Assembly: GCA_003062205.1 (NCBI GenBank)
Contig: PQCP01000109.1
Span: 1 to 42,570, forward strand
Direction of reading: 5' to 3'
Length of the DNA stretch: 42,570 bases
DNA from: Candidatus Sedimenticola endophacoides
Lineage (GTDB): Bacteria > Pseudomonadota > Gammaproteobacteria > Chromatiales > Chromatiaceae
Below, one piece after another: positions 391 to 33,879 of the stretch (the stretch's first letter is position 1; each line of letters starts with the position of its first letter). Position numbers and translations under genes: made by a program. The notes below the pieces were generated by a model. The model was not told where the DNA came from and searched no databases. It saw only the letters and a program-made list of their open reading frames with translations.

Positions 391-2016
391 ATGCAATACT
401 TCGGGGGTAACATGGATACTGTGGCACAGCGACTTCAGGGCGGATTCGGCAGCCGCTATTGGCAGGAGTTTTTCGGCAACAGTGCCTATTTTCCGCTAGC
501 CAGTATCTTTCTGGAGTTACTGCTCCATGACGCGACGGCCTATCTCTCCGGGCCGGACCCCTACCTGCTGCTGGGAGCGGCGCTGGGGCAGTCCGGGTTG
601 CTCGTCCGCTAACCGCCATGGAGAGCGAAGCGAAGGCGGTTAGTCCCCGATAGGCGTAGGCGCGGTTGTATGGCCGCAGTTACGACCGATAGGGAGTGAC
701 GTAGGGCATACAAATAGCGCATCCGACACGCCGTAGAGTCATTGTGGTCATCATGACGGAGTTGCGCACGAGCAGCTTTGCTGCAATGTGCGGGACGGAG
801 TCGTGATGAGCGCAGGACGGTCGGGGCAGTAACGGCTGTCGCGTTGGCGAGTCGATTTTGGGGACTGGGATGTCCCAAAATCTTTCACGAGGTAGCGACA
901 CTCTTGTATCTGGCGGGACGGGGTGTGCCCCGTCCGCTGCTGGGCAACCTGGCGGGTCCGGCGCTCTACACCCTGGTCGAGGTGCTGCTGGAAGGGGTGG
1001 AGTTCTTTTCCGCACCACATCATCAGGCCTACTGGGTATTCGCCCTGGCGGTCGGAGTGTTGCAGCAGTTGCGCCTCGGGTCTCCGGCGCAGCACTGGGC
1101 AAGGATCTTGCTGGTCAGCGAAAACCTGGTGCGCACCTCGATTCTGCTGGTCCTCTATGTGATCCTGGAACACCAACTGGGCGCTTACGACAGCGTCTGG
1201 CAGTTTTTCGAGGAGCGCTCCCATATCTACGTGGCGTTGGTGATACCGGTGATTGGCGTGGTGGTGGGCTTCTCCCAATGGACGGCACACAGCCATTTGC
1301 AGGGGGTGCTGGCGACATCCGCCCTGCTGCAGCGCTATTCGGAGTGGTTCCTGGGCAGGGAGTTGCTGGAACGGGCGGTGGCGGACCCCCACAGCCTGGC
1401 GCTGAAACGGCGCAACCGGGCGCTGCTGTTTCTGGATATCCGGGGCTTTACCGCATGGAGCGAGCGGCACGAGCCGGAGCAGGTGGTCACCCTGATCAAC
1501 CGCTTCTACCAGTGCGCCGAACCGTTCTGGAGGCGCGCGCAGGCGATCAAGGTGAAGTTGAGCGCGGATGAGATCATGCTGGTCTTTGCCGATCCGGAAG
1601 GGGCGGCCGAGGCGGCCCGGGCGGTGATGGCGGCCTGCGAAAGACTGCTACGGCACGAGGGGTTGCGTTGTGGCGCGGGGTTGCACTGGGGCGCGGTGGT
1701 GGAGGGGATGATCGGCGCGCGAGGACACCAGGGCTATGATCTGCTGGGTGACGCGGTGAACACCGCCAAGCGTCTATGCGATGCGGCGGCGGGGGGGGAG
1801 ATCCTGGTCTCGGGGCGTGCATGCGAGCGTCTGGGCCGGCGCTTCAGACTGAGCCCGGCCCGCCAGCTGCGCCTGAAGGGCAAGCATGGCGGGCAGGTGG
1901 TGCGTGCGCTGGTGTGGGATCCGCAGCCCGTCGGGGGGCGCGGAGCGGATCAGCTGAAGTCGTCCTCCGGGGTGTCGTATGGGTCGGGGTACTCCCTCCG
2001 GTCCCGGGAGGTATAG
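391..2016 (+). pseudogene. Membrane-anchored class III adenylate/guanylate cyclase, split by the 300-bp element
   Basis: The host gene is 391-606 joined to 907-2016. Both parts are in the same frame, and the joined product is 441 residues. The N-terminal half has hydrophobic, membrane-like segments. The C-terminal class III cyclase domain starts around residue 245. It keeps the first metal Asp in FLDIRGF (about 249), a second Asp in SADEIML (about 293), and the GDAVNTAKRL motif with the Asn and Arg used in catalysis (about 357 and 361). It should make cAMP (or cGMP) from ATP (or GTP). As the DNA stands, translation stops after 73 residues at the CGC TAA that begins the element, so the catalytic domain is cut off unless the element is removed. 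An alternative start is ATG 412, behind GGGGG. The 3' end overlaps the convergent DUF6763-type gene by 67 bp. Confidence 0.8.
607..906 (+). mobile_element. 300-bp repeated element, copy 1 (in cyclase gene)
   Basis: It begins CGCTAACCGCC and ends GCGACACTCTTG, and it has four other copies in the window that look identical. It has no target-site duplication: left flank ...CTCGTC, right flank TATCTGG... A perfect 9-bp hairpin (CTAACCGCC with GGCGGTTAG, 609-643) lies 2 nt from the left end. A long central hairpin spans 748-809. TGTCGC 837-842 pairs with GCGACA 895-900 and encloses another hairpin at 854-882. No protein is recognisable in it. It sits between codons (phase 0), sense to its host. 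The family is unknown to me. Confidence 0.95.
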
Positions 2017-3994: not shown

Positions 3995-4070
<76 letters not shown>

Positions 4071-7578: not shown

Positions 7579-9210
7579 ATGAGATGCTTGCTGAAGTTGC
7601 CGGTGCTGCCCCTGCGGTGGGTGCTGGCCGCCCTGCTGATCGGTTGCGGCCATGTCGCTGCGGCGCAGCCGGACCCTCTGCGGGAGCTGGAGGATCTGTT
7701 ACGCCAGGGACATGGTGGCGAGGCCTATGAGTTGGCGCTGGGGTTGCGGGAGGGGCATGAGGGCGAGCCCCGCTTCGACTATCGCTAACCGCCATGGAGA
7801 GCGAAGCGAAGGCGGTTAGTCCCCGATAGGCGTAGGCGCGGTTGTATGGCCGCAGTTACGACCGATAGGGAGTGACGTAGGGCATACAAATAGCGCATCC
7901 GACACGCCGTAGAGTCATTGTGGTCATCATGACGGAGTTGCGCACGAGCAGCTTTGCTGCAATGTGCGGGACGGAGTCGTGATGAGCGCAGGACGGTCGG
8001 GGCAGTAACGGCTGTCGCGTTGGCGAGTCGATTTTGGGGACTGGGATGTCCCAAAATCTTTCACGAGGTAGCGACACTCTTGCTGCTGGGGATCAGCGCC
8101 CTCGACAGCGGCCATCTCAGCGAGGGTGTGTTCGCCCTGGAACGCCTGCTGCGCCAGCATCCGGCGCAGGATCCGGCCCGCCTGCAGTTGGGACGCGGCT
8201 ATTATCTGCTGGAGCAGGACCGGCGCGCGCGCCACGAATTCGAACAGATCCTCTCCCATGACCCCGAACAGGCCCTGCGGCTCAGCGCGGAGCGCTTTAT
8301 CAAGGCGCTGGATCGGCGTGCGGGCCGTTACCGGCGCAGTCTGAACGCCTGGCTGGCGGCCGGGCTGGGCCACCACAGCAACCTCAACGCCGGGCCGGAG
8401 AGCACGCTCTTTCCCCCGTACACCCTTCCTGCCTCGGCAAGGGCCCAGGAGAGCCCGTTCGCCCTGGCCGCCGGTGGTATCGGTTTTGCCCAGCTCCTGG
8501 CGCCCCGTACCCAGTTGCTGCTGCTCGCCGACCTGGAGCAGCGCGAATACACCGACTCTCCGCTCGACAGCACCCGGCTCAACCTGCGCGCCGGTCTGGA
8601 CCTGCAACGCGGCGCCAACGATGCCAGCCTCTATCTCCAGGGCCGGGAACAGTGGATCGATGGCGACGCCTATCGCCGCTACCGTGGCGCGGGAATCGAT
8701 CTGCACCACCGGCTCTCTCCGGCCACCCGCCTGAGCGCCTGGTTGCAGGGAGGGGAGATCAGCTATCCGGGGCAGCCGCTGCTCGATACCACCCTGACCA
8801 CCCTGCGTATCGGGGCCAGCCACCGGCTGCCGGGACACGGGTCGCCGTTGCTGTTCGGCTCTCTCTATGCCGGGGAGGAGGAGGCCGACCTGGGGTCGCC
8901 CGCCGCCCGCGCCGCCGCCGAGCGCGACCTGCGGGGTGTGCGCGCCGGGGTTCAGCTGGCGCCCTCCGGGGCGTTCGATCTGTACGCCGTGCTGGGCTAC
9001 GAGGAGAGCCGCTACGGTGCTCCCGATCTGCTCTATTCGGTGGTCAGGGAGGATGAATTGACCACCCTGCGGCTCGGTGGCCGCTGGCACCTGGACCGGC
9101 AGTGGAGCCTGCGGGGCGAGCTGCTGCACACCGACAACGATTCGAATCTGCGTATGAAGGCGTACCGGGGCACCGAGGCGAGCCTGCGGGTGCGTTATGA
9201 TTTCAGATAG
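7579..9210 (+). pseudogene. TPR plus outer-membrane beta-barrel protein (SLAM/DUF560-like), split by the element
   Basis: The gene is 7579-7782 joined to 8083-9210 in one frame, 443 residues when joined. An N-terminal signal peptide (MRCLLKLPVLPLRWVLAALL...HVAAAQ) precedes a TPR-like helical part. The rest is beta-barrel-like, with alternating strands and a final RVRYDFR typical of an outer-membrane C-terminus. The layout resembles surface lipoprotein assembly modifier-type proteins. GGGAGG six bases upstream selects ATG 7579 over 7573. The joint FDY|LLGISALDSG rebuilds the motif I recall for this family (FDYLLGxAALDxG), which shows that the insert is exactly 300 bp. As it stands, the product ends after 69 residues. 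FecR follows after 10 bp, so the two form an operon. Confidence 0.8.
7783..8082 (+). mobile_element. 300-bp repeated element, copy 2 (in TPR/beta-barrel gene)
   Basis: Base-for-base the same as copy 1 by eye. Left flank ...TTCGACTAT, right flank CTGCTGGGG..., with no duplicated bases. Phase 0, sense to the host gene. The site falls inside a conserved motif (FDY/LLG), which makes the boundaries of the element especially clear here. Confidence 0.95.
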
Positions 9211-9220
9211 GAGGGAGACC

Positions 9221-10129
9221 ATGGTGCGAGAGCGGTTGCATATCGCCGCGTCCGTGGGGCGCGGTCTGCTGGTGGCGGGTCTGTTGGGATTGCTGGCCGT
9301 CCAGAGCGCGGCCGGCTCCGAACCGGCCGGGCGGGTACTCGCCAGCGTCGGCGATTTTCATGCCGAGCAGGAGGCCGGAGAGGCGCGGCCTCTGGCGCGC
9401 CGCTCCCCGGTGTTCGCCACCGATACCCTGGTCACCGGGGCCGATGCTTACGGGCAGGTGCGCTTCAGCGACGGGGCGCTGTTCGAATTCCCCGCCGAAT
9501 CGCGTTTCCGGGTCGAGGCGTATGCGTTCGACCCGGCCGCGCCGGAGGAGGGAGAGGCGCTGCTCCATCTGCTGAAGGGGGCGATGCGCACGGTCACCGG
9601 CGCCATCGGCAAGGAGAACCGGGAGCACTACCGGGTGAGCACCCCGGTGGCCACCATCGGTCTGCGCGGTACTCACTGGGGGATACGCCTGTGCGAGAAC
9701 GGCGGGTGCCGGGACCCCGACGGCAACCCCCTTGCCGACGGCCTCTATGGGGGGGTGATCGACGGTGCGGTCCTGGTCCGTACCCAGGCTGGAGAGCTGC
9801 TCTGTTCCCCGGGGATGTTCTTTTACGTGGCGGGACCACAGAGCCCGCCGCGGCTGCTGCCGGGTCCGCCCGGGGTGGTCTTTTCCGGGGGCGGCTCGGC
9901 CACCGGGGCGGGAACCCGGGAGCTCGGGTTGCATGGCGCGCCCCTGGGGACCCTGCTTCCCGAGCTGCAATGGCGTGGTCCCGGGGTGGAGGGCGGTTAC
10001 CGCGCGGGTGACCAGCTGGACAGCCGCGGGTTGCCCCAGGGGGGCGGCGGAGGACAGATCGATTCGGGGGGCGACTATTTCACGCTAACCGCCATGGAGA
10101 GCGAAGCGAAGGCGGTTAGTCCCCGATAG
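9221..10129 (+). CDS. FecR-domain periplasmic protein with element-altered C-terminus
   Basis: A protein with a signal peptide (about residues 1-32) and a FecR domain (about 40-165: SDGALFEFPAES..., then STPVATIGLRGTHWG, the usual FecR-domain end). A Gly/Pro-rich tail follows. FecR domains are exported sensing or scaffold modules; here the neighbours are a beta-barrel protein and a CHASE2 cyclase rather than a sigma factor. GGAGGGAG precedes ATG 9221. The element enters within the sixth codon from the end. The present frame ends LTAMESEAKAVSPR using element sequence (302 residues). Without the element the frame ends YFSVGQ with stop at 10394-10396 (291 residues). The protein is therefore probably still functional. 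Confidence 0.85.
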   Translation: MVRERLHIAASVGRGLLVAGLLGLLAVQSAAGSEPAGRVLASVGDFHAEQEAGEARPLARRSPVFATDTLVTGADAYGQVRFSDGALFEFPAESRFRVEAYAFDPAAPEEGEALLHLLKGAMRTVTGAIGKENREHYRVSTPVATIGLRGTHWGIRLCENGGCRDPDGNPLADGLYGGVIDGAVLVRTQAGELLCSPGMFFYVAGPQSPPRLLPGPPGVVFSGGGSATGAGTRELGLHGAPLGTLLPELQWRGPGVEGGYRAGDQLDSRGLPQGGGGGQIDSGGDYFTLTAMESEAKAVSPR

Positions 10130-10382
10130 GCGTAGGCGCGGTTGTATGGCCGCAGTTACGACCGATAGGGAGTGACGTAGGGCATACAAATAGCGCATCC
10201 GACACGCCGTAGAGTCATTGTGGTCATCATGACGGAGTTGCGCACGAGCAGCTTTGCTGCAATGTGCGGGACGGAGTCGTGATGAGCGCAGGACGGTCGG
10301 GGCAGTAACGGCTGTCGCGTTGGCGAGTCGATTTTGGGGACTGGGATGTCCCAAAATCTTTCACGAGGTAGCGACACTCTTG
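10083..10382 (+). mobile_element. 300-bp repeated element, copy 3 (3' end of FecR gene)
   Basis: Same sequence as the other copies. Left flank ...TATTTCA, right flank GTGTAGGGC..., with no target duplication. This is the only copy in phase 1, entering after the first base of a codon. With it removed, the FecR gene stops 12 bp short of the convergent CHASE2-cyclase gene. Confidence 0.95.
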
Positions 10383-18211: not shown

Positions 18212-19064
18212 ACAACAGGCGGTGGCGGTCACCAGCCGGTGGATCCGCGAGGTGGTGGTGGGGCTCGGACTCTGCCCCTTCGCCGCGCCGGTGGTGGAGG
18301 CGGAGAGTATCTTCTACGCGGTCACCCAGGCACGCGACGAGGAGGGCATCTATCGCGACATGCTGGCAGCCCTCGACCGCTTCCAGCAGAGCGACGAGCG
18401 GGAGATGGCCACCGGCTTCTTCATCATTCGCTAACCGCCATGGAGAGCGAAGCGAAGGCGGTTAGTCCCCGATAGGCGTAGGCGCGGTTGTATGGCCGCA
18501 GTTACGACCGATAGGGAGTGACGTAGGGCATACAAATAGCGCATCCGACACGCCGTAGAGTCATTGTGGTCATCATGACGGAGTTGCGCACGAGCAGCTT
18601 TGCTGCAATGTGCGGGACGGAGTCGTGATGAGCGCAGGACGGTCGGGGCAGTAACGGCTGTCGCGTTGGCGAGTCGATTTTGGGGACTGGGATGTCCCAA
18701 AATCTTTCACGAGGTAGCGACACTCTTGCCCAACGGCATGGCCCGCTTCGAGGAGTTCAATGCCTTCATGACCCTGGCCGACCAGGCGGTGGTCAACGCC
18801 GGCCTTGCCGGGGTGATACAGATGGTCGCTTTCCACCCGGGGATCCTGTTCGCGGAAACCGACGAGGAGGACCCGGCCAACTACACCAACCGTTCGCCCT
18901 ACCCGATGTTGCACCTGATCCGCGAGGATGATCTGGAGGCGGCGGTGGCGGGCTATCCCGACCCGGACGCCATCCCCGAGCGGAACATACGGCTGCTGCG
19001 CCGCATGGGGCTGACCCGGGTGCGCGAGCTGTTGGCGCGCTGCTACACGGCATCGGCGACATGA
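18198..19064 (+). pseudogene. DUF1415 protein, split by the element
   Basis: The gene is 18198-18428 joined to 18729-19064, same frame, 188 residues. DUF1415 features are GLGLCPFAAPV near the start, VAFHPGILFAET, the strongly conserved ANYTNRSPYPMLHLIRE, and PDAIPERNIRLLRRMG. The function of the family is unknown. The joint GFFII|PNGMARFEEFNAF lines up without a gap with the relatives I recall (a short hydrophobic strand, Pro, then ...DF..YNDF), so the excised length is exactly 300 bp. As it stands, the product ends after 78 residues and lacks the conserved core. Confidence 0.85.
18429..18728 (+). mobile_element. 300-bp repeated element, copy 4 (in DUF1415 gene)
   Basis: Same sequence as the other copies. 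Left flank ...TTCATCATT, right flank CCCAACGGC..., with no duplicated target. Phase 0, sense to the host. Confidence 0.95.
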
Positions 19065-32995: not shown

Positions 32996-33879
32996 AGGCG
33001 CGTGTGCAGCGGGCTGCTGCGTGGAAAGTGGGCGCGCAGAAATGCCATCTGGTCGGCCAGCACATGGCGGCTCTGGAGGTAGACGTACGCTAACCGCCAT
33101 GGAGAGCGAAGCGAAGGCGGTTAGTCCCCGATAGGCGTAGGCGCGGTTGTATGGCCGCAGTTACGACCGATAGGGAGTGACGTAGGGCATACAAATAGCG
33201 CATCCGACACGCCGTAGAGTCATTGTGGTCATCATGACGGAGTTGCGCACGAGCAGCTTTGCTGCAATGTGCGGGACGGAGTCGTGATGAGCGCAGGACG
33301 GTCGGGGCAGTAACGGCTGTCGCGTTGGCGAGTCGATTTTGGGGACTGGGATGTCCCAAAATCTTTCACGAGGTAGCGACACTCTTGCTCGGCGTGGGTG
33401 GGGGTGAAGGGGATCGCCAGCAACTCCATTCCCGAGGCCTCGGGTGTGCGGTCCGCCTTGTGGTTGTTGCAGCGGACGCAGGCGGTGACCACATTGTTCC
33501 AGCGGTCGGGGCCGCCCTGGCTGAGGGGCCGGACATGGTCCCGCGACAGGCGCCGCCCGGGGAATCGGCCTCCGCAATAAAGGCAGGTGTGGTCGTCGCG
33601 TCGGAACAGGGCGGGGTTGTTGAGCGGCGGGGCGTAGCCGCTGTCCATTTTCTCCCGCGCCCGGCTGGTGCCGTGGGTGGCGATGATGGTGTTGACCTCG
33701 ATGACACTGCGCCGTCGGGTGCGGGCGTTGATGCCGCCGCGCAGCCGGTAGAGCACCCCACCGCAGCGGTAGGCGATCTGGTCCAGGAAGTGGAGCCGCA
33801 CGGCGCTGCGGTAGTCGATCCACTCCAGAGGCATGCCGGCGATGTCGGTGCGCAGGATCTGTTGTTTGAGCTCGCCCAT
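32992..33879 (-). pseudogene. HNH endonuclease, split by the element in antisense
   Basis: The gene runs from 33879 down to 33388, then 33087 down to 32992, in the same frame, 195 residues joined. The HNH fold has CLYCGGRFPGRRLSRDHVRP (zinc Cys pair and the His of the motif), then NNVVTACVRCNNHKADRTP with the second Cys pair. It resembles stand-alone HNH proteins common in Proteobacteria whose substrate is unknown. The joint THAE|YVYLQSRHVLADQ restores what I recall of the family end (AEYL.L..RR.LADQM.FL). In the present DNA the frame instead runs 50 codons into the reverse complement of the element and loses the last 31 residues. The HNH core is intact, so activity may survive. Confidence 0.85.
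33088..33387 (+). mobile_element. 300-bp repeated element, copy 5 (antisense in HNH gene)
   Basis: Same sequence and same contig strand as the other four, but the host gene is on the minus strand, so this copy is antisense. Plus-strand flanks are ...AGACGTA and CTCGGCGTG..., with no target duplication. It sits between codons GAG and TAC of the host. Confidence 0.95.

Follow-up and report, generated by a model that had tools for sequence, protein, structure and literature searches.

A 300-bp noncoding sequence that occurs in five identical copies in the window (the whole stretch of DNA analyzed here, 42,570 nucleotides of a Candidatus Sedimenticola endophacoides contig) most likely represents a new family of nonautonomous, structured mobile elements that work like single-strand transposons. 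A covarying, multihelix mobile element with no Rfam match offers a route to studying spread without a visible enzyme, and it also lets one ask how so little sequence aims insertion.

All five window copies lie in one orientation, are identical at 300 of 300 positions, and have unrelated flanks on both sides, which confirms what an earlier note, made from the sequence alone, had claimed about their number, position, and identity. A repeat search finds the same five copies, with boundaries that are off by 4 nt through its extension. The copies and the two tetranucleotides at the ends of copy 1 are as follows.

603 to 606, + strand: target tetranucleotide C-N-N-N (CGTC), left of copy 1
607 to 906, + strand: copy 1, in a class III adenylate/guanylate cyclase-type gene, sense
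903 to 906, + strand: right terminal tetranucleotide C-N-N-N (CTTG), end of copy 1
7783 to 8082, + strand: copy 2, in a coding frame, sense; TPR-like by eye, with a 3' half that has no Pfam match
10083 to 10382, + strand: copy 3, four codons upstream of the end of a FecR-like frame
18429 to 18728, + strand: copy 4, in a DUF1415 gene, sense
33088 to 33387, + strand: copy 5, in an HNH-endonuclease-type gene, antisense

The copies had been described as full units with fixed ends, and this is supported; likewise, by eye, none of the five is flanked by a direct repeat. No recognizable protein had been seen inside, and indeed the longest closed frame in the element has 89 codons and lies on the minus strand, with 4, 4, and 6 stops in the forward frames. 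The claim that every copy sits inside a gene stands for copies 1, 2, 4, and 5, where the reading frame runs on beyond the insertion (in copy 4, the gene halves match the DUF1415 profile at 3-70 and 72-169), but could not be made with confidence for copy 3. The window also holds a tRNA gene at 3995-4067.

Genome-wide, the count of five proved to be an undercount, and the earlier note had also passed over the C-N-N-N target, the conserved fold, the strand bias, and the wide distribution described below. The window genome (2.98 Mb in 172 contigs, rated 100% complete) contains 354 exact matches to the first 37 nt of the element (191 forward and 163 reverse; 0 for a reversed-pattern control), so that at 300 nt each the element makes up as much as ∼3.6% of the genome's DNA. 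In 782 kb of this genome, we found 115 full-length copies, of which 103 have 0 differences from the window copy, 11 have one, and 1 has four; partial copies were mostly at contig or stretch ends or nested. This near-identity indicates that the spread was recent, in support of the earlier suggestion of a very recent expansion. Free end-to-start excision junctions numbered 0 in the same 782 kb.

Insertion is exact, adding 300 bp without target duplication. For an acyl-CoA ligase gene, the empty site is covered by 14 aligned rows from other genomes, and 12 of these (from 11 genomes) are of equal length, as expected if insertion neither lost nor added bases; the G014 row differs in length by 1 nt and the G047 row by 3 nt at some point in the match. 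For an interrupted GGDEF-type gene, two paralogues encoded in the same genome can be aligned with no gap at the insertion junction. Of the 76 copies that were scored, 40 are flanked by coding sequence on each side, with the same frame continuing in 23 and opposite strands scoring best in 17; no same-strand frameshift across the insertion was seen among the 40, and the 17 opposite-strand readings are attributed to the ambiguity of GC-rich frames. Since strand calls from short codon windows are ambiguous in a GC-rich genome, the scoring was redone with longer windows, which gave 43 of 105 copies a confident place within a frame that runs on past the insertion. Of these, 23 are in sense and 20 in antisense orientation, which shows no sense bias relative to the interrupted genes.

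Thirty halves of interrupted genes, drawn from these 43 copies, were scanned against Pfam, and 25 gave a match. The interrupted types include cyclases, a methyl-accepting chemotaxis protein (MCP), GGDEF/EAL proteins, histidine kinases, FliG, a T2SSE ATPase, DctM, a branched-chain permease, acyl-CoA ligases, a carboxylase, and MscS, among others, and by our judgment no core housekeeping gene was among the 30 halves. The set fits destructive insertion combined with selection against insertions into essential genes. The near-identical copies mark a very recent burst that hit chemotaxis, motility, signaling, and transport genes, which is genome decay under way. Two loci (L239:4736-5245 and L018) carry interrupted chemotaxis and motility genes, fliG and that for an MCP, which suggests a lineage in the course of losing motility.

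The target is short and loose. Copies in continuous stretches have a C at position −4 in 98 of 103 cases, against a background of 30.6% C, so that the target takes the form C-N-N-N^, with insertion three bases 3' of the C. In a set of 108 distinct copies, which includes loci picked with their flanking bases, position −2 leans to T/A, −1 leans to C/T, and −5 avoids C; no fixed base was seen on the right side of the insertion site. Relatives in other genomes follow the same rule where the element starts with CGCT (60 of the 63 distinct elements have C at −4), and those with other model starts, several of which start one base off, have it in 4 of 18. The right end also has the form C-N-N-N, with C fourth from the end of the element in 38 of 45 distinct elements, and other subfamilies end in CCGG, CTAG, or CTTA. 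The two ends are fixed but unlike each other, and there is no terminal inverted repeat.

Orientation is biased with respect to base composition. Of 95 copies in the window genome where the skew is clear, 66 have the + strand of the element on the strand that is locally richer in G (P = 0.0002), and in relatives from other genomes it lies on the G-rich strand in 41 of 57 (P = 0.001), or in 31 of 42 when only those with clear skew are counted (P = 0.003); the bias was scored by local GC skew and not by mapped origins, and nearby copies are not independent. A smaller first set had given 27 of 40 copies, with 87 of 143 pairs sharing an orientation (70.8 expected). The G-rich strand is usually the leading strand, and if this holds here, the + strand was inserted into the lagging-strand template.

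The + strand folds into a series of helices, which in copy 1 have the following positions.

609 to 643, + strand: P1, the hairpin at the 5' end (609-617 with 635-643), found by inspection and in relatives
645 to 650, + strand: 5' arm of P2 (CCCCGA), pairing with 821-826
653 to 732, + strand: P3 (653-657 with 728-732), enclosing P4 (666-672 with 707-713)
738 to 816, + strand: P5 arm, from the predicted fold, with approximate limits and outside the covariation test
821 to 826, + strand: 3' arm of P2 (TCGGGG), linking the two halves of the element
837 to 900, + strand: 3' domain, with P6 (837-842 with 895-900) around hairpin P7 (854-865 with 872-882)

P6 is based on inspection and on the folds of some relatives, and the lowest-energy RNA fold of the window copy pairs the 5' end differently from P1. 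In 77 distinct 5' parts, aligned in a fit to the structure itself, 29 of the 32 base pairs in the 5' domain vary at both partners, and 93.4% of cells are paired, compared with 29 to 44% when partners are slid. The 3' hairpin has 8 of 11 pairs that change on both sides and 90.6% of cells paired, compared with 28 to 52% for slid partners (12 sequences); in 500 shuffles, its pair count was reached 39 times and its number of pair types 177 times. For P2, the two arm windows are joined by a perfect 6-mer in 22 of 38 distinct elements and lack one in 16; when the right windows were swapped 1,000 times, the number of elements with such a 6-mer averaged 6.7 and never exceeded 16. The arm pairs include CCCCGG/CCGGGG, CCCCGA/TCGGGG, CCCGGG/CCCGGG, and CCCCAA/TTGGGG.

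G-U pairs account for 12% of standard-paired cells on the + strand, and since these would be C-A on the other strand, the + strand is indicated as the folded one. The window copy folds better than its shuffles with z = −6.8 on the + strand and −4.3 on the minus strand. When six members were folded with single-stranded DNA parameters, broadly the same arms were obtained in most, which is compatible with either RNA or DNA. The sister genome G001 contains five short forms (L065 to L069; 138 to 170 nt as cut) that keep P1 and P6/P7 and are without most or all of the inner arms, with P2 predicted in 4 of the 5; since they differ among themselves, they may have arisen by deletion following insertion.

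The family extends well beyond the window genome, to other sulfur-oxidizing and further Gammaproteobacteria. A blastn search recovered it in 20 of 55 genomes including the window genome, in some through short matches only. With a covariance model of the 5' part, matches were obtained in 34 of 274 genomes in an even sample of the class (Gammaproteobacteria), the window's included, at an E value of 1e-4, and in 1 of 398 genomes of a phylum sample, the window's own, at 1e-5, which indicates a patchy family whose rate depends on the sample. A degenerate pattern, to which the window copy itself does not conform, recovered 39 named stretches from Thiohalocapsa, Thiorhodococcus, Thiocapsa, Thiocystis, Chromatium, Thiodiazotropha, Sedimenticola, Methylococcaceae, Thiotrichaceae, a tubeworm endosymbiont, other Gammaproteobacteria, and one Polarisedimenticolaceae metagenome-assembled genome, a name that we take to belong to the Acidobacteriota. 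In addition, two IMG/VR viral contigs (L093 and L094) carry family members, that of L094 being full length; plasmids and phages gave no match by distant blastn.

A model of the 3' part gave 71 matches in the same loci as the 5' model. The 46 elements matched by both models have total lengths of 209 to 317 nt, and 42 of 45 distinct full-length sequences, the window's included, are 271 to 317 nt long. The earlier note had proposed looking for a longer relative that shares these ends and encodes a transposase; none was found among the elements matched by both models, and longer forms may exist at the other loci, where just one model matched. Beyond frames that run through the element and duplicated stretches of one genome, no neighbor gene common to the relatives was recognized at 22 loci. 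In Rfam, the window element had only weak overlaps, with E values of 0.7 and above, and the relatives' loci gave three matches, none of which was on the element. The view that the element belongs to no named family is thus upheld by Rfam and by the distant blastn against plasmids and phages, and a literature search, mostly outside subscription journals, found no description of it.

None of the six mobility-enzyme families tested accounts for all carriers. Y1_Tnp is present in 40 of 55 genomes and was found neither in the window genome nor in the sister G001, which is rated 84% complete. RVT_1 occurs in 30 of 55 genomes and again in neither of these two, on which ground a retroelement was rejected. 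The IscB-type RRXRR domain was detected in 7 of 55 genomes, the window genome not among them, and a blastn comparison of 13 family members with 15 iscB loci gave short matches only, at E values of 0.01 or above; an IscB guide RNA was therefore also rejected. The TnpB domain is found in 1 of 15 carriers, with no match in the window genome. Transposase_20, of the IS110 type, is present in 8 of 15 carriers including the window genome. One related genome, G005 (L095, L102, and L107), has 29 IscB-type RRXRR matches.

The closest likeness is to the IS200/IS605 family, whose members carry hairpins at their ends, insert 3' of a tetra- or pentanucleotide without duplicating the target, and use the lagging-strand template (PMC6006769 and PMC7290912). 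As in these elements and in PATEs, their ends-only derivatives, there is a hairpin near each end, no terminal inverted repeat, and no target duplication; insertion is 3' of a short motif, and a lagging-strand-template bias is shared, which for our element is judged by local GC skew only. Unlike them, the element has a target in which only the C at −4 is nearly fixed, it has a 300-nt covarying core, and no Y1 enzyme was found in its host; moreover, the loci read showed no parental insertion sequence with the same ends. With its loose target and with no Y1 enzyme found in the host, the element stays outside the IS200/IS605 family.

We favor, with a probability of roughly 55%, the prediction that the noncoding element moves as folded single-stranded DNA via an HUH-type enzyme acting in trans, into lagging-strand templates. 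The end hairpins P1 and P6/P7 would be the putative binding sites of this enzyme, and helix P2 would keep the two ends of the element together. The enzyme would nick 3' of both C-N-N-N sites and free the + strand, which would then be joined to a new C-N-N-N target in a lagging-strand template, and replication would presumably convert the inserted strand to double-stranded DNA. The inner arms P3 to P5 are likely dispensable for movement, since the G001 forms are read without most of them, and may have a second role as RNA. Several findings weigh against this reading: no tested enzyme of this kind (Y1_Tnp or Y2_Tnp) tracks the element across carriers, the 782 kb showed no end-to-start junction, the conservation of the inner arms exceeds what recognition of the ends would need, and a single fixed target base contrasts with the tetra- or pentanucleotide of IS200/IS605.

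A rival reading, which we consider possible but rather unlikely, is that a Y1 transposase of either the TnpA-REP or the IS200 kind has the element as its REP-like or PATE-like partner, the transposase gene being lost or missing here. The anatomy is the same, and in G047 the sole element found lies ∼770 bp from a Y1 gene, which from its look we take to be of the REP type, while in G043 an element lies 27 bp from a Y1 remnant. This adjacency is a weak lead to the enzyme: elements were found in 3 of 20 Y1-neighborhood regions, of which L263 was selected for its element, and those of G043 and G047 were selected after the adjacency had been noticed. In PMC6006769, Y1 subclass 2.3 is described as spreading in the Chromatiales, and class 3 genes are described with atypical structures, ∼600 copies being present in one genome. 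Against this reading, Y1_Tnp was found in neither the window genome nor its sister.

The element is also much longer than a REP, a unit of 21 to 65 nt that is largely intergenic (PMC6006769); the published marks of single-strand transposition, with PMC8266576 as the source for TnpA-REP, agree with the element in anatomy and strand. Like REPs and REPtrons, it is a folded noncoding unit in hundreds of copies without an enzyme of its own, but it is ∼300 nt long, 43 of the 105 copies are confidently in genes, and by eye there is no GTAG foot before P1.

We regard it as improbable that the element is mobilized by an IS91-like or Helitron-like Y2 rolling-circle enzyme. Elements of that kind have asymmetric ends, a 3' hairpin, and a C fourth from the nick, all of which our element shares, and CTTG, the very tetranucleotide at the right end of the window element, is a site 3' of which Y2 enzymes like the phiX174 initiator nick. 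The window genome has four Y2_Tnp matches, one of them in a 497-codon frame. However, Y2_Tnp was not found in the carriers G023, G025, G032, and G043, the CTTG is part of the inserted block and is absent from the empty site, the other subfamilies have different right ends, and the target is not a fixed tetranucleotide.

Just as doubtful, to our minds, is that RNA drives the spread, either as the guide RNA of a trans-acting nuclease or host enzyme or as a ribozyme that inserts into DNA. Were this true, an RNA-driven element would insert into single-stranded DNA three bases past a C without a transposase of its own, and such spread would have reached many Gammaproteobacteria. It would sit well with the large covarying fold and its conserved unpaired stretches, with the share of G-U pairs on the + strand, and with the lack of a consistent protein partner among the families tested. 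IscB and TnpB guide RNAs resemble the element in having a structured, RNA-like core within a mobile element and in leaving no duplication, but the window genome has no match to IscB or TnpB, and the TnpB domain is rare among carriers. The lack of RVT_1 in the window genome and its sister, the lack of an Rfam match, and the existence of forms without most inner arms in G001 argue against it as well.

We see very little chance that an integron-type tyrosine integrase recombines the folded single strand; integron-type recombination does use folded single strands and leaves no target duplication, as the element does, but by eye no attC-like core is common to its two ends. That the element is a self-splicing intron or a bypassed segment, with the genes left functional, is scarcely credible: the insertions are precise, structured, and often within genes, but the balance of 23 sense to 20 antisense copies shows no sense preference, the genome has no RVT_1, no group I or II intron family in Rfam matches, and the gene halves, 25 of 30 with a Pfam match, include none that looks like core housekeeping. 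Least credible of all is a DDE-type MITE or an assembly artifact, the latter raised as a formal alternative in the earlier note, since, short and multicopy as the element is and although some contigs end within a copy, it has neither terminal inverted repeats nor target duplications, and the family is present in many copies with clean ends in G067 and G281, genomes of one and two contigs (six copies compared in G067 are 93 to 98% alike, and those in G281 are 98 to 99% alike). The intron, MITE, and artifact readings were all rejected on these grounds.

Several loci show further arrangements of the element. At L010 (G000:C155:46627-49928), the last 21 nt of the element at position 1503 are repeated immediately after it. 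Solo 3'-end fragments (nt 248-300 and 268-300) occur in inverted pairs at L042:7689-7765 and L246:10444-10520. At several places (L046 to L049, L051, and L054 to L056), the element adjoins the same repeated sequences, with right flanks that differ, and among 79 copies the left flank ends in GTTGTAGCGTCCAT in 5 and in GTAAGCCGCCAC in 3.
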